Below, one piece after another: positions 28,270 through 39,640 of a stretch of DNA of 64,000 nucleotides. The notes under the pieces were generated by a model, which saw only the letters and a list, made by a program, of their open reading frames with translations, was not told the DNA's origin and made no database searches. Source of the DNA: an uncultured Piscirickettsiaceae bacterium (GTDB lineage: Bacteria > Pseudomonadota > Gammaproteobacteria > Methylococcales > Cycloclasticaceae); NCBI GenBank assembly GCA_913061075.1, contig CAJXSK010000004.1:62001-126000 (forward strand), read 5' to 3'. How positions within the stretch are numbered: position 1 is the first letter of the stretch; the number at the start of each line of letters is the position of its first letter. A program made the translations under genes and the position numbers.

Positions 28270-29787
28270 ATGACGGACTACAAGGAAAAGTTTCAGAAAG
28301 CGATTAAATCACTTGATGAATCCGAGCGTGAAGCGACAGACAATATTGCAGCATTGTATAAAGCCTTACTTGGGATGTTAAATGTTGTAAAAACTAAGCA
28401 TAAGCTAATTGCTAAAGCAGTTGCAAAGCTCCCTAAAAAGGTTCAGCCAGACAGGCTTCCTCTGGTTGACCTTGAGCGTATCAAGGACCTTTTGATTAGT
28501 CACATGGGTGATAGTGAGGAAGCTGATTCTAGTTTGTTAGTCTTAGAAGAGCTGCTATTACATTTGAGTGCTTCTTCAGTTTTTAAAGATGATGTTTTAG
28601 CGGTTCAAAAGATGTTGTCTTCAGCTGCCAATTCAAAAGACTTTATCAATATTGCTCAAAAAATTGCCACAATCGTACTAGATAATAATGATACGGCAGG
28701 TAGCCTGGGAAATTTATCTGAAGGATCCATAGAGGCAATTAAAGATGGGTTATTGGCGAAATTAAGTGAACTTGAAACGTCAGATACTGATATTGCACGG
28801 TCACTTGATATAGTTAGCCTTAAAGAGAAGTTGGCCAAAGTAACGAACTTAAGAAGTTTAGAGGAGTTTTATAAGCAAATTTTTGAAGGCTTTGGTGAAA
28901 AGCTAACAAAGAAAGATGAGTTTATTGTAGAGCTCTCTGGGTTGATAGAAACTGTCGCACAGCAACTGTCTAGTATTTCGTTAGAGATAAAAAAAGAAAA
29001 TATAAATGATGAGGCGGTTTCGAAAGACAGGTGGCGTTTAACAGAGTTAATGAGCGAACAAGTAAATACTATTAGAGAAAGTGTTTTACAAGCTGAAAGT
29101 TTGTCGACGCTTAAGGAGCTTGTAAGCGAGCGTATGAATGTTTTGAATTCTAATGTGAATGAGCTTGTGGCTATAGAAAGCCGCCGAGTGAAGGATGCAG
29201 AAGCGAATACGAGACGTATTGAAAATAAGTTAAATAAGGTTCAAAGTGAGGTTTCTTCGTTAAAGTCATCTTTAAATAAAGCCCATGATCAAGCATTTGT
29301 TGATCCTTTAACAGGTGTTGCAAATAGGCGTGCTTATGACGAAAGAATTAAGCTAGAGTTTGAGCGATGGAAGCGTAATAAAGAACCATTAGCCATAGCA
29401 ATTATGGACGTCGATAAGTTTAAGAAAATTAATGATACCTTTGGTCACCCTGTTGGAGATAAGGTGCTTCGAACAATTAGTCAGTTGATACATAAAAAAG
29501 TAAGGGGCAGTGACTTTTTTGGGCGCGTTGGTGGTGAGGAGTTCGTTGTTATTTTTGCTGGTAGTGATCTTGCTAACATTATGACGAGGCTAGAACAGTT
29601 TAGGAAAAGTATCGAAGACTGTAAATTTGGCTCTAAAGGTAATAGAGTTGTAATTACTATGTCTGTTGGTTGCGCATTATTTTCAAATGAGGATAACCCA
29701 AGTAATGTCTACGAGAGGGCCGATCAGGCGCTATTGAAAGCAAAGCAGACAGGGCGAAATAAATGCCTTAGCGACCAAGACCTTTAA
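28270..29787 (+). CDS. Diguanylate cyclase with long helical N-terminal region
   Basis: About 505 residues. The C-terminal GGDEF domain makes c-di-GMP. It has DPLTGVANRR, the metal Asp in IMDVDKFKKIND, and the signature GGEEF at 421-425. An RGSD inhibitory I-site lies five residues before it, so product inhibition is expected. The first 340 or so residues are predicted to be soluble and helical, ending in a coiled coil that feeds the GGDEF domain. I do not recognise a named sensor domain. The ATG at 28270 is favoured by GGAG at 28261-28264. Confidence 0.92.
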   Translation: MTDYKEKFQKAIKSLDESEREATDNIAALYKALLGMLNVVKTKHKLIAKAVAKLPKKVQPDRLPLVDLERIKDLLISHMGDSEEADSSLLVLEELLLHLSASSVFKDDVLAVQKMLSSAANSKDFINIAQKIATIVLDNNDTAGSLGNLSEGSIEAIKDGLLAKLSELETSDTDIARSLDIVSLKEKLAKVTNLRSLEEFYKQIFEGFGEKLTKKDEFIVELSGLIETVAQQLSSISLEIKKENINDEAVSKDRWRLTELMSEQVNTIRESVLQAESLSTLKELVSERMNVLNSNVNELVAIESRRVKDAEANTRRIENKLNKVQSEVSSLKSSLNKAHDQAFVDPLTGVANRRAYDERIKLEFERWKRNKEPLAIAIMDVDKFKKINDTFGHPVGDKVLRTISQLIHKKVRGSDFFGRVGGEEFVVIFAGSDLANIMTRLEQFRKSIEDCKFGSKGNRVVITMSVGCALFSNEDNPSNVYERADQALLKAKQTGRNKCLSDQDL

Positions 29788-29811
29788 TGTATTAAGCATT
29801 TTATTATGCGG

Positions 29812-31509
29812 TTATTTTTTTAAAGCCTGCATTGCCTGGTGGGTGCTTAAGTAGATGTTTTCAGCGCCTAACTTTTCAATAAATTCTGTTTGTTTCAGCT
29901 TGTCCATAACGGGGCCTTTGATTTCTGCTAAATGGAGTTTGATACCAGCTTTCTCTAACCGATAATGAATATCGTCTAATGATTCGAGTGCGCTAGTATC
30001 AATATAGCTTATTGAATTACAGATGAGTACAACGTGGTCTAGTGCACTATTATCGGCCACGTGCGTCATAACCGTATCTTCTAAAAAGTTGGTATTGGCA
30101 AAATACAGGTTTTCATCAATTCGCATGGCGAGAATATGCTCATCTGTTTTGACTTTATGTCGGTCAATATTTCTATAATGCTCGGTGTTTCCCACTTGCC
30201 CTACAATCGCGACATGTGGTTGACTGCTTCTGAAAAGATATAGCCCTATCGACATGATGATGCCCGCTATTATGCCGCTTTCTACATCAATTATTAGTAC
30301 TGTAAAAAAGGTCACGAGCATGGAGAAGGCATCTGTTCGGTCATAACTCCAAGCATGCTTTAATGTGTATGCATCAATTAAAGGAATAACAGCAAGTACA
30401 ATAATGGCCCCTAATGCTGCTTTAGGTAAAAAGAAGAAAAGCGGCGTCAATATAATAAGAGTAAGAGCAACTAATCCGGCGGTAATGATAGAGGCCAAAG
30501 GTGAGTTGGCCCCGGCCGAAAAATTCACCATAGAACGACCAAAACCACCTGCTACAGGGTAGCCGCCGCTTATTGCAGAAGCAATGTTGGCAGTTCCAAG
30601 GCCGATGAGTTCTTTGTTGGAGTCTATTTTTTGCCGCTTCTGGCTGGCCATTGATTTACCAATAGAAACGCTTTCAAGATAGCCAATTAATGCAATTAAA
30701 AACGCACTAGGCAATAGCTCTTTTAAGAGCGAGTATTCTAGATTGGGTAAGATGAACGAAGGCAGCCCTGGTGGAATGCTGCCAATAATGGCAACGTTTT
30801 CATGTGTGTTTAGGCCCATGTAATAAACAGCGAGGGTGCTTACCACAACGGCTGCTAGCGGACCGGACTTAGAAATAAATTGTATTAAGGCTTCATTGCT
30901 TGTGTGCTTTTTAAGAAATGTAAATAACGGGCTTTTGAATGCCCATAATAGAAAAAGGCTGCCTAGGCCAATAATAGCGGTGGCTAGGTTGCTTTGAAAT
31001 AGTTGGGAAATGATAAGGTAAGCTGATTCATAGGCTGGTAGTCCACGTGGTATATCTAAACCCAGGATGTGTTTTATCTGGCTTAGAGCAATAATAAGGG
31101 CAGATGCGCTTACAAAACCAGAAATAACTGGGTGGCTAAGGAAGTTAATAATAGCACCAACTCTCGCGACACGCATGAGCAGCAAAATGAGGCCAACTAA
31201 TAACGCTAATGTATGTGCGGTGCTAACCATGTCTTCTATATTGGTTATATTTAACTCAATAAGCGTGGCGCCTGTCATAAGTGACATCAGGCCAACAGGT
31301 CCTACAGCTAATGTTTTACTGCTGCCAAATATTGCATATAAGAGAAGTGGCAGAACAGAAGAATACAATGCTACTTGTGGCGGCAGCCCAGCGAGTAACC
31401 CATAGGCCATGGATTGGGGAACTAAAACAACAGCGACGATAACACCAGCAATGAGGTCGCCAGATAGCTCTGTTTTTTTATAGTCTGTTACCCAATTAGG
31501 TAGAAGCAT
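29812..31509 (-). CDS. SulP-family anion transporter with STAS domain
   Basis: Inner-membrane transporter of 565 residues with about ten to twelve helices. It has the SulP signature GLLAGLPPQVALYSSVLPLLLYA in the first helices and the conserved GGYPVAGGFGRS region. A cytoplasmic STAS domain (about 440-555) includes ICNSISYIDTSALESL. SulP members carry sulfate, bicarbonate or C4-dicarboxylates. Sulfate would suit the cysDN genes in this window, but they are 18 kb away and the substrate is not settled by sequence. Confidence 0.93.
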   Translation of the reverse strand: MLLPNWVTDYKKTELSGDLIAGVIVAVVLVPQSMAYGLLAGLPPQVALYSSVLPLLLYAIFGSSKTLAVGPVGLMSLMTGATLIELNITNIEDMVSTAHTLALLVGLILLLMRVARVGAIINFLSHPVISGFVSASALIIALSQIKHILGLDIPRGLPAYESAYLIISQLFQSNLATAIIGLGSLFLLWAFKSPLFTFLKKHTSNEALIQFISKSGPLAAVVVSTLAVYYMGLNTHENVAIIGSIPPGLPSFILPNLEYSLLKELLPSAFLIALIGYLESVSIGKSMASQKRQKIDSNKELIGLGTANIASAISGGYPVAGGFGRSMVNFSAGANSPLASIITAGLVALTLIILTPLFFFLPKAALGAIIVLAVIPLIDAYTLKHAWSYDRTDAFSMLVTFFTVLIIDVESGIIAGIIMSIGLYLFRSSQPHVAIVGQVGNTEHYRNIDRHKVKTDEHILAMRIDENLYFANTNFLEDTVMTHVADNSALDHVVLICNSISYIDTSALESLDDIHYRLEKAGIKLHLAEIKGPVMDKLKQTEFIEKLGAENIYLSTHQAMQALKK

Positions 31510-31650
31510 TGACGGAGATGTTTTTTGTAATTGAGTTCATTATAGTTGCAATAGAAGAGTAATTATTAATATATCAAAAAAGAATAGTTTTATAAGCAAA
31601 ATAAATGTGACGGGCTACCTATGTCTGTGAGCCGTTGTTAGGTCGGCAAC

Positions 31651-31670
31651 TTGTTGCAGAGCAGCAACAA
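31651..31670. repeat. Perfect 7-bp inverted repeat
   Basis: TTGTTGC (31651-31657), six-base spacer, GCAACAA (31664-31670), followed by A bases on the plus strand. It lies about 40 bases before the putative small-RNA promoter and could be an operator. Confidence 0.5.
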
Positions 31671-31707
31671 AAAAGCGTAAAATCAACGTTTTAAGTGTAT
31701 TTTTTTG

Positions 31708-31735
31708 TTGCATAAATGCAAAAACTTGATATATT
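31708..31735 (+). promoter_or_regulatory. Putative sigma-70 promoter for an orphan small RNA
   Basis: TTGCAT (31708-31713) and TATATT (31730-31735) with a 16-base spacer. No protein gene follows before the terminator at 31817. Confidence 0.5.
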
Positions 31736-31741
31736 GTAATC

Positions 31742-31840
31742 ATAACAAGGAGGGGGAGGCAGCCTTTACATTGGTAAAACTGCACCAAAAAAACAATAAA
31801 AATAATAAAAAACTTAAGGGGCCTTTGGTCCCTTTTTTTT
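31742..31840 (+). ncRNA. Putative small non-coding RNA
   Basis: A transcript of about 100 bases is predicted from a sigma-70-like promoter to an intrinsic terminator. It begins with a purine-rich AGGAGGGGGAGG stretch, continues with an A-rich, weakly structured middle, and ends in the terminator. No open frame with a properly spaced ribosome site is seen; a TTG-started 26-codon frame runs through the terminator and is unconvincing. The gene flanks are SulP (minus) and rpiA (minus), so the transcript is not part of a plus-strand operon. The terminator is the firmest part; function is unknown. Confidence 0.5.
31817..31840 (+). terminator. Intrinsic terminator with no upstream protein gene
   Basis: AGGGGCC (31817-31823), TTT loop, GGTCCCT (31827-31833), then a run of T. 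The stem has one G-T pair. Confidence 0.85.
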
Positions 31841-31918
31841 GTCTGTCGTAATTTAATCCTTAATCGGTTGTACCATTAAAGGTTAATCACGCAAGTGATG
31901 GGTGGAAAGGCAAAACTA

Positions 31919-32575
31919 TTAGCGTGTTAGCGTTTTTATACCTTCTTCTCGAGCTAATAAGAGAATGTCAGCTGAACGTTCAGCAAATAGTCCTGTCGTC
32001 ACTACGCCGGTGAGGTTATTCAACGTGTTTTCTAGCTTGACGGGCTCGAAGATGTCTAAACGATGGATGTCTAGGATGATGTTGCCATTATCAGTAATGA
32101 AGTTTTCACGCCAGACTGGGTGCCCGCCCAGTTTTATGATTTCTCTCGCTACATAGCTGCGCGCCATAGGGATAACTTCTATAGGTAATGGAAAAGCACC
32201 TAGACAGCTGACCAATTTGCTTTCGTCGGCTATACAAATAAATTGTTTACTAGCAGCCGCGATGATTTTTTCTCGAGTTAATGCGCCGCCGCCACCTTTT
32301 ATCAACTGCAGGTGTTTATTTGTTTCATCGGCGCCATCGACGTAAATATCTAACGAACCGACGGTGTTCAAATCTAATACAGGAATGCCTAGAGCATGTA
32401 GTTTTTTTGAGCTGGCTTCAGAACTTGATACAGCGCCTTCAAATTGATGCTTTATGGGCTCAAGAAGATCGATAAAATAATTGACGGTTGAACCGGTGCC
32501 TACACCAATAATATCGACATTATGAGTGTATTCAATGGCTGCTTCAGCGGCTTGCAGTTTCATGTTTTTTTGCAT
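31919..32575 (-). CDS. rpiA: Ribose-5-phosphate isomerase A
   Basis: Interconverts ribose-5-phosphate and ribulose-5-phosphate in the non-oxidative pentose phosphate path. The 218 residues include [11 protein letters not shown] (25-35), DGADE (80-84) and [11 protein letters not shown] (93-103), the last two holding the catalytic Asp, Glu and Lys. It has normal length and a separate 81-bp gap to the cyclo-ligase gene upstream. Confidence 0.97.
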
Positions 32576-32656
32576 AAAAAGTTGTAGAGATTGATGTGTT
32601 ATATGTATGTTAACGTATTAGGTGTTGAACGTGCGGGCATTAGTTTGTTAAATGTA

Positions 32657-33286
32657 TTACGTACGCAATAGAGCTATTGCTCGCTTTGAAAAGCAACGTG
32701 TTTGCTTTTCTGTAATTACCGCATCTAACGGTATATCCCAGGTTTGAGGGCTTAGCGCCTCGGTTTCTTGGCAGCTGTAAGCAATGCCAATTAATAAAGG
32801 ACTGATTTTATTTGATGTCTGCGCTGAAAATTGTAATGTGCGGTCATAATAACCGCCTCCAGCACCCAATCTATTTCCTTTGTTATCAAAACCAACTAAT
32901 GGCATCAATAATGTTGATAAGAACTTGCACTGTAACGTGCCGTAAGTGTCGGCTTCTTCAATATTAAATTGATTATATTTAATGCGGTCGCCCCACGCAT
33001 ATGCTGAAAAGATAAGTTGTTGGTTTTTTGTTAATGAAGGTAAGTAGTGAGGAATGTGTCGGTCAAAACAGGTTTTAATCGTACTTTCTAAATTAGGTTC
33101 TCCATTGTGAGTCATATAGCTAGCAATCCGTGGGCGCCTTAATAAAACGCCAGAGTTTGCTATTCTCATGTTGATGAGAAAATCATAATGTTCTCTATGG
33201 GAAGGTGGTATTGCTAGCCTAGTTTGCCGCAAGAATTGTCTTTGATTAATTACTGGGTCAGTAGCCATGATATGGTTGGTCGCCAA
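32657..33286 (-). CDS. fau: 5-formyltetrahydrofolate cyclo-ligase
   Basis: ATP-dependent enzyme that recycles 5-formyl-THF to 5,10-methenyl-THF. The 209-residue protein has the C-terminal signature GAGGGYYDRTL and the LLIGIAYSCQE strand, plus an N-terminal RQTRLAIPPSHRE helix that fits the ATP-binding region. It lies directly downstream of the 6S RNA, as ygfA does in E. coli, so readthrough transcription from the 6S promoter is likely. Confidence 0.93.
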   Translation of the reverse strand: MATNHIMATDPVINQRQFLRQTRLAIPPSHREHYDFLINMRIANSGVLLRRPRIASYMTHNGEPNLESTIKTCFDRHIPHYLPSLTKNQQLIFSAYAWGDRIKYNQFNIEEADTYGTLQCKFLSTLLMPLVGFDNKGNRLGAGGGYYDRTLQFSAQTSNKISPLLIGIAYSCQETEALSPQTWDIPLDAVITEKQTRCFSKRAIALLRT

Positions 33287-33288
33287 AT

Positions 33289-33480
33289 AAAGTGTTCCCC
33301 ACGAGCGCCGTAGTCGGAGTGTCTACCTTGAACCAAGCGGTTCAAGTGGGAACGAAGATATTGTGTTGGGTTTCTCTACTGAAAGAGCATACACGCCTAC
33401 AATACAACTCGTTTTCCCTAATATTTAAATAGGCTCAAGGTTTTTGTCACTTAGCTTCGAACGCAGCAGGGAACACTTAA
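33289..33480 (-). ncRNA. ssrS: 6S RNA
   Basis: Minus-strand RNA of about 190 bases between zapA and the cyclo-ligase gene, the usual gammaproteobacterial place. The ends pair: AAGTGTTCCC at the 5' side with GGGGAACACTT at the 3' side. The internal CACTTGAACC-CTTGGTTCAAGG hairpin matches the E. coli 6S arm (CACCTTGAACCAAGGGTTCAAGG). The 5' strand has TTGAGCCTATTT, like CTGAGCCGATATTT of E. coli. It binds sigma-70 RNA polymerase and lowers transcription in slow growth. The exact ends are estimated from the closing stem. Confidence 0.92.
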
Positions 33481-33559
33481 AGTGTAGACCTAAATTGCTT
33501 ACGTGTCATTAAATTTCCCTGTAAACAAGAAAATTGAAAAAGGCGGATGGATTAGCGTG

Positions 33560-33859
33560 TTATTTGCCGAAAGAATTTATGGCGAAATCTAACTTGTTTT
33601 GTAAGGCATTAATCTTTTCACTGATATCCAGTGAGACATTATTCTTTTTATCGCCTTCATTAAGTAAGTCATGCGTAATGTTAAGGCCAGCCATGACAGC
33701 AATACGATCTAGCCCAATAATTCGACCAGACTGTCGTATATCATTCATTTTTTGATCCAAATAACGAGCCGAATGTTCTAATTGAGGCTTCTCTTCCTCG
33801 GGACAGTTGACTTGATAGTCTTTATCTAAAATTGTTACGGTAACAGGGACTGAAGCCAT
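33560..33859 (-). CDS. zapA: Cell division protein ZapA
   Basis: A 99-residue FtsZ-ring stabiliser. The N-terminal VPVTVTILDKDYQVNCPEEE fold is followed by the coiled-coil dimer helix, with the family pattern LDQKMNDIRQSGRIIGLDRIAVMAGLNITHDLL. It follows a small coiled-coil gene by two bases and precedes 6S RNA, the conserved order. Confidence 0.93.
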   Translation of the reverse strand: MASVPVTVTILDKDYQVNCPEEEKPQLEHSARYLDQKMNDIRQSGRIIGLDRIAVMAGLNITHDLLNEGDKKNNVSLDISEKINALQNKLDFAINSFGK

Positions 33860-33861
33860 CG

Positions 33862-34080
33862 TTAGATTTCCATTACTTTGAGGCGTGAAATCATCGCTTC
33901 AACACGTGATTTTGCTTTATCGGTCTTATCCATTAACGCGCTACGTTGTTGGACAAGGTCTGCCTGCTGGTTTTTAAGCTGGCTATTTTCTTCGTGCAAA
34001 CGTTGACATACCTGAACTAGCGTATCAATACGTTGCTCAAGATGCTGGAGGGCTAATTCTGGATTTTGTTCTATGCTCAC
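33862..34080 (-). CDS. TIGR02449-type small coiled-coil protein
   Basis: A 72-residue all-helical protein with heptad-like spacing over most of its length (LEQRIDTLVQVCQRLHEENSQL). It sits two bases before zapA, as the TIGR02449 family typically does. Like ZapB it may act in division-ring assembly, but no function is shown; the coupling to zapA is the main argument. Confidence 0.85.
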   Translation of the reverse strand: MSIEQNPELALQHLEQRIDTLVQVCQRLHEENSQLKNQQADLVQQRSALMDKTDKAKSRVEAMISRLKVMEI

Positions 34081-34217
34081 GCCGTAAATCTTAGGTGTGA
34101 TTGGGCCTCAGGTCAACAGGAAGTTTATTATAAGCAACTTTTTGTGAGCTAAGTTTTGGTGTGAGCGCTAGCAGTGATAGCATACACCTAATATAAACAG
34201 AGCAAGTTGGAGTTAAG

Positions 34218-34784
34218 GTGGAACAATTAGGCGATTTTGACAATATGCAATCATTATTAAACGCTCACGATGCATATATGAGCGCGGCAGAAGTGCACGG
34301 GTTAGCTGCAGGTATGTTGTGTGTGGGGTTTGATGCGAAATTTGACCGCTGGGTGGTTGCTGTTTTTGAAACAGATGAGCAGCTAGAGGGATTGGACGAT
34401 AGCGAAAAAGGTGATTTGATAGGGTTGTTTGAAGGCACGTGTGAATTACTCAAAAGTGACGAATTTATATTTGACTTATTTTTACCCGATGATGGGGTGC
34501 CAATGGTTGAAAGGGCAAAAGCACTCAGTGAGTGGTGCCAAGGGTTTTTATACGGTATTGCTTATATGGGGGCTAAAGATGATACCGATTGGGGCGAAGA
34601 CGGTAGAGGGATTTTGAGAGATTTTCTAGAGCTATCTAGAATAGATGCAGATGGGGCGGAAGAAGCAGATGAACAGTCGTATATGGAGCTTCAGGAGTAC
34701 GTAAGGTCTGCTGTGCATGTGATGTTGATGGAGCTGCAGCCAGCCGTTGAAGCCAATGCGACAACGTCTCCAAGGCTTCATTAA
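34218..34784 (+). CDS. ygfB: UPF0149 (YgfB/YecA-like) family protein
   Basis: A 188-residue acidic helical protein. Family features are AAEVHGLAAGMLCVG near the N terminus, SEWCQGFLYGI (about 110-120) and EYVRSAVHVMLMEL at the C terminus. GTG at 34218 is the likely start. It lies 2 bases before pepP, the same order as E. coli ygfB-pepP-ubiH. In Pseudomonas a YgfB homologue affects gene regulation and beta-lactam tolerance, but transfer of that role here is inference. Confidence 0.92.
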   Translation: MEQLGDFDNMQSLLNAHDAYMSAAEVHGLAAGMLCVGFDAKFDRWVVAVFETDEQLEGLDDSEKGDLIGLFEGTCELLKSDEFIFDLFLPDDGVPMVERAKALSEWCQGFLYGIAYMGAKDDTDWGEDGRGILRDFLELSRIDADGAEEADEQSYMELQEYVRSAVHVMLMELQPAVEANATTSPRLH

Positions 34785-34786
34785 TA

Positions 34787-36121
34787 ATGGGCCAACAAAA
34801 CATAAGCGCTACAGAATTCGCAAAGCGCCGTAAGCAATTTCTACGCTTGTTGGGTGCAGGCAATATTGCGGTGATCCCAGGTGCCTCTATTCAACATAGA
34901 AACAGAGATGTCGAGTATTTGTTTCGCCAAAACAGTGATTTTTATTACCTAACGGGTTTTGATGAAGCGGATGCAGTGGCCGTGTTTGTGCCCGGCCGTG
35001 AGCAGGGCGAATATATATTATTTTGCAATGAATACGATGAACAAACGGCGTTGTGGGTAGTTGCAAATGCAGGTATAGATAACGCGATGAGCGTATTTGG
35101 TGCGGACGATGCGTTCCCCATTGACGACATTGACGATATTTTGCCGGGCTTATTGGAAAATAATAATAAGCTGTACTTTCCAATGGGTATGAATCCAGCG
35201 TTCGATCAACAGTTAATGGACTGGTCACAACAGGTGCGGAGTAAATCAAGAGCAGGTGTAACAGGGCCCGCAGAGTTTATTTCAACGGACCATCTGTTGC
35301 ACGAAATGCGTTTAATAAAATCATCGCAAGAAATTAAGCAGATGAAAAAGGCGGCAAAAATTTCTGTGGTGGCTCATAAAAAGGCCATGCAGGTTTGTAA
35401 GCCAGCTATGTATGAGTATGAAGTTGATGCAACGTTAAAGCACCATTTTATTAGTAATGGGGCACAGCAAGAGGCTTATCCCGCTATTGTTGGCGGCGGT
35501 GTGAATGGATGTATTCTTCATTATGTACAAAATAATGCGCAACTTAATGATGGCGAATTGTTATTGATTGATGCAGGGTGCGAATGGGAAAAATACGCCT
35601 CTGATATAACACGAACATTTCCCATAAACGGGGTGTTTAGCGAGGAACAAAAGGCGTTATACCAATTGGTATTGGATTCGCAATATGCTGCGATTGAGCA
35701 GGTAAAACCAGGTAATCATTGGAATGACCCTCATGAAGCGGCTGTTAAGGTGTTAACAAAGGGGTTGGTTAAGTTAGGAATTCTTAACGGACGTGTGCCA
35801 ACGTTGATTAAAAATGAAGCGTATAAACCGTACTATATGCACCGAACAGGGCACTGGTTAGGCATGGATGTTCATGACGTCGGTGATTATAAAATAGACA
35901 AACAGTGGCGCTTGTTGGAGCCGGGCATGGTGCTTACTGTAGAGCCAGGTCTGTATATTCAGCCGAATGCAAAAGAAGTTGATAAGAAATGGCGCGGAAT
36001 TGGTATTCGTATTGAAGATGATGTATTGGTAACGAAAAAAGGCCATGAGGTTTTAACTGACGGCGCACCGAAAGAAGTCAACGATATTGAATCGTTGATG
36101 GAGAAAGCGCGTGTCGGATGA
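34787..36121 (+). CDS. pepP: Xaa-Pro aminopeptidase P
   Basis: Pita-bread metalloprotease that removes an N-terminal residue before proline. The 444-residue protein has the family N-terminal domain (about 1-170) and a catalytic domain with the five metal ligands Asp 262, Asp 273, His 356, Glu 386 and Glu 410, in LIDAGCEWEKYASDITR, MHRTGHWLG, TVEPG and RIEDD. It overlaps ubiH by 11 bases. Confidence 0.96.
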   Translation: MGQQNISATEFAKRRKQFLRLLGAGNIAVIPGASIQHRNRDVEYLFRQNSDFYYLTGFDEADAVAVFVPGREQGEYILFCNEYDEQTALWVVANAGIDNAMSVFGADDAFPIDDIDDILPGLLENNNKLYFPMGMNPAFDQQLMDWSQQVRSKSRAGVTGPAEFISTDHLLHEMRLIKSSQEIKQMKKAAKISVVAHKKAMQVCKPAMYEYEVDATLKHHFISNGAQQEAYPAIVGGGVNGCILHYVQNNAQLNDGELLLIDAGCEWEKYASDITRTFPINGVFSEEQKALYQLVLDSQYAAIEQVKPGNHWNDPHEAAVKVLTKGLVKLGILNGRVPTLIKNEAYKPYYMHRTGHWLGMDVHDVGDYKIDKQWRLLEPGMVLTVEPGLYIQPNAKEVDKKWRGIGIRIEDDVLVTKKGHEVLTDGAPKEVNDIESLMEKARVG

Positions 36122-39263: not shown

Positions 39264-39401
39264 TTAAATGGGTGTTGATGCAATCGTAATAGTAAGTCTT
39301 AACGATCTTAGTGGTCAGTTAAGTAAAAAATCTAATTTGCGCCTGTCTGGAATGGAAAAAAAGAGAGGTTCAGGTTATAGTGCAGCACTAATTTACCTCT
39401 T

Positions 39402-39600
39402 TTGGGAGAGCTCGGCATTAGGCCGACGCCGAAGGCGCAATCCGTCCGGAATCGCTCAGGCAAATGGACCATAAGAGAGATTGTTTAAATATATTTAGCA
39501 ATCAGTTAGTTCTGGAGAGTGGTGAGGTGTTAAAGCTTAGCCCACCGAAGAGGAAAGAGGGTGCGCTATATGATGCCCCTTAAACTTTCAGGTTTTGGAC
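39402..39600 (+). promoter_or_regulatory. Tandem glycine riboswitch
   Basis: Two glycine aptamers in series. The first has GGAGAGC, then GACGCCGAAGGCGCAA and GCTCAGGCAAATGGACCAT. The second has GGAGAGTGG, then CCACCGAAGAGGAAAG and CTTTCAGGTTTTGGACAGA. These are the conserved cores of the GcvB-type aptamer pair. An intrinsic terminator follows, so glycine is expected to prevent termination and switch on the glycine cleavage genes. Confidence 0.95.
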
Positions 39601-39603
39601 AGA

Positions 39604-39640
39604 AGGGCGGCATGTGGTTTTCGCGTGCCGCCCTTTTTTT
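39604..39640 (+). terminator. Riboswitch expression-platform terminator
   Basis: AGGGCGGCA (39604-39612), thirteen-base loop, TGCCGCCCT (39626-39634) and seven T bases, ending 13 bases before gcvT. Confidence 0.92.

Follow-up and report, generated by a model that had tools for sequence, protein, structure and literature searches.

What is encoded where a promoter and a terminator enclose about a hundred bases and no recognizable gene? This question is raised by positions 31742-31840 of a 64,000-nucleotide stretch of DNA (contig CAJXSK010000004.1; hereafter, the window) from an uncultured Piscirickettsiaceae bacterium of the genus Cycloclasticus. An original prediction, made from the letters of the window alone, had described the segment as an orphan transcription unit and a new small RNA. 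We compared it across 18 Cycloclasticus genomes, including that of the window (G000). The segment looks like a real stand-alone small-RNA gene of Cycloclasticus. We consider it somewhat more likely than not that this RNA is under the control of PhaR, belongs to the polyhydroxybutyrate (PHB) regulon, probably binds Hfq and is analogous to MmgR of Sinorhizobium.

A PhaR-type palindrome and an IHF-like site precede the promoter

The most informative part of the locus consists of a PhaR-type palindrome and an IHF-like site (Table 1), both of which lie upstream of the coordinates of the original prediction. The sequence YTKNTGCRNYGCANMAR is the published operator consensus of Ralstonia PhaR (PMC12849132). 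In 16 of the 17 orthologous promoters a palindrome with 0-2 mismatches to it lies 93-99 bases 5' of the AAGGAG block, which is itself close to the RNA's 5' end; the background density of such matches in the fetched DNA is ~0.28 per kb. The IHF consensus is WATCAANNNNTTR, and the site located between palindrome and promoter matches it exactly in 14 of the 17 copies, with one mismatch in G010, two in G015 and three in G009; of the shuffled regions, 9.5% contain a match with at most one mismatch. Binding of PhaR and of IHF at these positions is predicted from the matches.

The genes of PHB metabolism are present throughout the genus. PhaR is encoded in all 18 genomes (with PF07879 and PF05233 in the window's genome), as are phasins, and the PhaC_N family was likewise detected in all 18, in G003 by a weak match only.

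Conservation of the small RNA within Cycloclasticus

A homologue stands beside rpiA in each of the 17 Cycloclasticus genomes in which rpiA was detected, G003 being the exception. The aligned rpiA-side intergenic regions share the -35/-10 region, the purine block, the A-rich linker and the terminator, and it is this comparison across relatives, not the promoter alone, that raises the unit above chance. In a BLAST search of 61 genomes, G000 and all but one of its 17 genus mates were matched at E values no higher than 8.6e-6, and the remaining mate, G003, at 0.094; the cut-off of 10 was loose, and 59 of the 61 genomes gave some chance match.

The original prediction had proposed a covariance search in relatives as a check. 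The model (R2) was built from 7 of the 17 sequences with a hand-set structure; it matches the window at 31740-31840 with 71.8 bits, and every genus genome but one scores at least 55.5 bits (17 of 18). The exception, G003, gave no convincing copy (25.9 bits); this genome is 80% complete with no rpiA match. Strictly filtered R2 searches of an order sample of 301 genomes (18 of the genus and 283 others) gave nothing convincing in the 283, where the best match reached 41.7 bits and 64 genomes had a match at E up to 1. Three of these weak matches (L230-L232) were read and rejected, having neither AAGGAG within the match nor an adjoining PhaR-type site. In a class sample of 369 genomes, R2 passed E 0.01 only in the window's genome and in one other. 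The latter match (L288, 35.6 bits, E 0.008) contains AAGGAG and was also rejected, because the stretch that was read lacks a T tail and the 200 bases preceding the match contain no PhaR-type site.

Rfam gave no family at the gathering threshold for the segment, nor in the 10 of 17 orthologous loci given; the weaker Rfam matches, that to CrcZ included, were all below their cut-offs. Among the literature matches listed (titles and abstract starts, with subscription journals largely uncovered), nothing concerned this RNA. Taken together, the shared gene neighbourhood, the covariation and the absence of any Rfam match reaching threshold lend strong support to the claim of a new small RNA.

Table 1 Features of the small-RNA locus and its flanking genes, in window coordinates.
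Feature	Position	Strand	Remark
PhaR-type palindrome TTGTTGCAGAGCAGCAA	31651..31667		~80 bases 5' of the predicted start; one mismatch to YTKNTGCRNYGCANMAR
IHF-like site AATCAACGTTTTA	31681..31693		between palindrome and promoter; 0 mismatches to WATCAANNNNTTR
-35 element TTGCAT	31708..31713	+	within conserved TTGTTGC..ATGCAAAA stretch
-10 element TATATT	31730..31735	+	spacer 16
Small RNA (predicted)	31742..31840	+	~99 nt; start placed from the -10 element
Purine block AAGGAGGGGG	31747..31756	+	AAGGAGAGG in most species; Shine-Dalgarno-like, near 5' end
Hairpin 1	31759..31783	+	GCAG...CTGC with inner TTTAC/GTAAA
A-rich linker of ARN repeats	31787..31812	+	possible Hfq distal-face site
Intrinsic terminator	31816..31840	+	eight-T tail
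SulP-family sulfate permease gene	29812-31509	minus	Pfam family
rpiA	31919-32575	minus	Pfam family

RNA structure and the predicted role of Hfq

In an alignment of the 17 sequences (A2), AAGGAG.GG is invariant; further invariant columns include parts of the A-rich linker and of the terminator. Hairpin 1 keeps its pairing while its sequence varies, with two-sided changes in 10 of 11 pairs. For the whole structure, 88.3% of cells are paired, as compared with 74.5% in shuffled alignments (none of 500 as high) and 40-63% when the structure is slid, a count over the 17 sequences that leans towards structure because the alignment was fitted to it. Folding of the single sequences, which is free of the alignment, gave a mean z of -2.70 with p<=0.05 in 12 of 17 (the hairpin of G015 being cut short in this test), and the control stretches beyond the terminator gave a mean z of -0.07. 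RNAalifold on a plain MAFFT alignment of the 17 sequences predicted the terminator alone. An automatic consensus structure (model R1), in which the purine block paired with the T-run of hairpin 1, was discarded and replaced by the hand-set R2.

Binders of the Hfq distal face typically carry ARN repeats such as those in the linker, where the window copy has eight consecutive ARN triplets and all 17 copies have 4-9. The copies also have U tails of 5-9, and thus present the terminator and A-rich site of an Hfq-dependent small RNA. The hfq gene is found in the window's genome and in 16 of the 18 genus genomes, both misses being incomplete genomes. From these features the small RNA is probably Hfq-binding.

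Searches for targets covered exact and imperfect complementarity. An exact 12-base complement was found at 14 places in the 18 genomes; 11 of these fall in the gene of the RNA, the other 3 lie in three different contexts, and no perfect 12-base site was conserved. A duplex of CTTCCCTCC with the 5' end of the RNA was among the best predicted ones in 7 of 13 phaR loci (L165, L169, L171, L175, L176, L177 and L181). The CTTCCCTCC stretch belongs to a pnp-like frame (named by eye) that precedes phaR, at a distance of ~1 kb from it; the duplex was set aside, as its recurrence may reflect only the codon and protein conservation of that frame.

Promoter, terminator and neighbouring genes

The coordinates 31742-31840 proved correct and the unit is bounded as described. 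Both flanking genes are indeed on the opposite strand, rpiA ending at 31919 and the SulP frame starting at 31509. The original prediction had claimed a sigma-70-like promoter and a good intrinsic terminator, and the latter part stands: the stem (31816-31834) is clear, with 8 pairs of which 5 are G-C, followed by a T run. Terminator-like sites number 12 in 29000-35000, against 5.0 expected from shuffles. The promoter is present but weak taken alone, as TTGCAT-16-TATATT matches the consensus at 8 of 12 positions. It was not picked by a promoter scan, the threshold of which is 9/12 and which returned 10 promoter-like sites against 14.2 in shuffles. The -35/-10 region could be aligned in 17 of 17 genus genomes with rpiA, with automatic scores of 5 to 9 of 12.

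A sigma-54 promoter, suggested by the layout of palindrome and IHF-like site, was set aside because the GC at -12 varies between copies (TGTGA and TACA are both seen), whereas the orthologous promoters repeatedly show a TATTAT-like -10. The promoter looks to be of the sigma-70 type.

Two known RNA elements also lie in the window. A 6S RNA (RF00013, 79.2 bits) is located at 33292-33475 of the window on the minus strand, upstream of a frame resembling 5-formyltetrahydrofolate cyclo-ligase (named by eye), and a tandem glycine riboswitch (67.6 and 40.5 bits) at 39393-39612 on the plus strand, directly 5' of an open frame starting at 39614.

The palindrome elsewhere in the genomes

The palindrome is linked to PHB also by its occurrence elsewhere in the genomes. 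A generic form of it, with one mismatch allowed, lies upstream of phasins in four genomes (G002, G007, G011 and G012) and in a divergent thiolase/hydrolase region in six (G000, G002, G006, G007, G011 and G013), which in G000 is ~5 kb from a phaC gene. Among the genes in the fetched loci, a site is present within 150 bp upstream in 6 of 12 class-A phasin genes and in 3 of 3 of class B (MLNNLE). Upstream of hfq (L271-L285, 15 Cycloclasticus genomes), a palindrome with at most 3 mismatches lies at 62-82 bases in 11 of 15 genomes (11% in shuffles), and one with at most one mismatch in 5 of 15 (0.1% in shuffles); no palindrome with up to 3 mismatches was found upstream of hfq in the window's genome, G008, G009 or G010.

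In three genomes the palindrome also occupies the intergenic region that separates a priA-like gene from a divergently oriented gene resembling a sigma factor (both named by eye): L159 (G008), L258 (G007) and L260 (G006). Separately, G009 has the sole copy of the small RNA lacking the palindrome (L044), and a phasin of this genome carries two PhaR-type sites upstream.

Several observations weigh against the reading of a PhaR-controlled, Hfq-binding small RNA. With one mismatch allowed, the generic palindrome has 62 strand-wise matches in the 18 genomes versus 46 for a reversed control, and several matches lie inside unrelated coding sequence; single matches therefore prove little, and the evidence for the palindrome is its position and repetition. 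The G009 copy has neither palindrome nor IHF-like site in a genome having PhaR and phasins, and G015 is without a good IHF-like site. Of the 8 class-C phasin regions, a single one carries a site, which is weak. No site was found just upstream of the phasin in any of 15 long-phasin loci or at the class-B-like phasin of G008 (L206), and the site at the window genome's own class-A phasin requires 3 mismatches. Close to phaR, none was found in 18 loci, with a weak match farther off in 5 of them. The RNA was detected in one genus only. In 42 PHB-linked loci scanned for duplexes, no pairing of the RNA with start sites was conserved. Read on the minus strand, the A-rich linker could instead serve as T-tract for a terminator of rpiA.

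Alternative explanations

Part of the same evidence could be read in other ways. According to the original prediction, the purine-rich start could bind anti-Shine-Dalgarno sequences or CsrA-like proteins, and either role may apply. McaS and RNAs of the RsmZ type work by CsrA titration, and the GGA-containing 5' block might similarly bind CsrA and free CsrA-repressed mRNAs. Copies contain 1-3 GGA motifs, and 16 of the 17 carry at least two of them within the 5' block; ACARGGA, the CsrA consensus, occurs in 12 of 17. CsrA is encoded in the window's genome, and a match passing the cut-off was obtained for 14 of 18 Cycloclasticus genomes. However, in CsrA sponges of the CsrB/RsmZ type several GGA motifs are spread over hairpin loops, whereas here they are crowded into one block, with one extra elsewhere in only 3 of 17 copies and a single motif altogether in G010. 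Moreover, G015 (99% complete, 240 contigs) retains the RNA without a CsrA match, and we regard titration as unlikely. The purine block might also act as a Shine-Dalgarno decoy or an anti-antisense seed, pairing with 16S rRNA or with the anti-Shine-Dalgarno of structured leaders and modulating initiation. AAGGAG could pair with the 3' end of 16S rRNA, to which it is complementary; none of the 17 copies departs from it, and no start codon follows at a conserved place. No target leader was identified, however, and an RNA that pairs through a short seed would be just as likely to begin with purines, which leaves the decoy a less probable role still.

That the locus is a promoter remnant with a bidirectional terminator mainly ending rpiA, the plus-strand transcript being a by-product, would agree with the low consensus score of the promoter and with the T-rich sequence that follows the stem on the minus strand, where the terminator may also serve rpiA, a point not made in the original prediction. 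Such an origin would not account for a purine block that never varies, for the covariation of hairpin 1 or for the fixed PhaR-type and IHF-like sites, and appears very improbable. The strong AGGAGG-type Shine-Dalgarno block near the 5' end, together with a 48-codon open frame in the window's genome, might further suggest a leader peptide or attenuator. We counted ATG, GTG, TTG, CTG and ATT at 3-21 bases after AAGGAG and found no start codon conserved among the 17 copies: 4 have none, and the rest differ in codon, place and frame length. The original prediction's statement that the segment has no convincing protein frame thus agrees with the lack of any frame conserved across the copies. With no conserved start codon, and with rpiA, the next gene downstream, on the other strand, the leader peptide was rejected and is barely credible.

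Proposed mechanism and significance

For the PhaR-controlled small RNA that we favour, transcription would probably be governed by PhaR, a PHB-binding regulator, at the upstream palindrome, with IHF bending the DNA between palindrome and promoter. Free PhaR may activate, as with phaP3 of Ralstonia, which we slightly prefer over repression by looping because the palindrome stands at a phaP3-like distance of ~80 bases and a -35 this weak would be consistent with dependence on an activator. A repressing loop would also be compatible with the locus, given the TTGTTGC half-site found at the -35. The RNA would most likely act in trans with Hfq, its 5' end pairing with mRNAs, and post-transcriptional control would thereby be tied to the state of carbon storage.

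We also put forward, as a doubtful extension, that Cycloclasticus PhaR runs an RNA arm in which it controls both the small RNA and, in many species, the presumed chaperone gene hfq, making post-transcriptional control depend on the level of storage polymer. Such a circuit from PhaR to a small RNA would be the second of its kind and of independent origin, with an IHF-bent upstream site unlike MmgR.

Cycloclasticus are marine degraders of aromatic hydrocarbons, and one of the relatives compared is listed as a mussel symbiont; a coupling to carbon surplus and storage would thus bear on oil breakdown and on symbiosis. If true, a small RNA under a PHB sensor, unrelated to rhizobial MmgR as far as compared, would suggest that storage regulators repeatedly recruit riboregulation.

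Comparison with known systems

In its ARN repeats and its terminator with a U tail, the RNA resembles the class II Hfq small RNAs of the ChiX and MgrR type, from which it differs in that no Rfam relation is above threshold and Hfq binding is here a prediction. It shares A-rich motifs and a link to polyhydroxyalkanoate metabolism with CrcZ and CrcY of Pseudomonas (PMC8401924). The Rfam match to CrcZ is far below the cut-off (16.2 bits against 95), the CrcZ model has 398 positions, and these RNAs are mainly transcribed by sigma-54 (PMC8401924), whereas the Cycloclasticus promoter looks sigma-70.

The closest parallels to the promoter are those of phasin genes in Ralstonia eutropha, with which it has the palindrome consensus YTKNTGCRNYGCANMAR in common. 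There, phaP1 is repressed by PhaR through promoter-located sites, whereas phaP3 was activated by it when reporters were assayed in E. coli; the predicted PhaR sites of phaP3 lie ~70 and ~200 bp upstream of its start (PMC12849132). Both are protein genes and the phaP3 promoter is sigma-54-like, whereas the Cycloclasticus product appears to be non-coding, with a promoter that looks sigma-70.

MmgR of Sinorhizobium meliloti (alpha-r8 family) is alike in being a small RNA gene with a PhaR-type palindrome in its promoter. The palindrome is bound by PhaR (AniA) in electrophoretic mobility shift assays, and MmgR is repressed by AniA/PhaR (PMC12542648); the RNA is Hfq-dependent and limits PHB and phasin levels (PMC8401924). 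MmgR was compared with the Cycloclasticus RNA by description rather than by alignment, and the latter matched no Rfam family above threshold.
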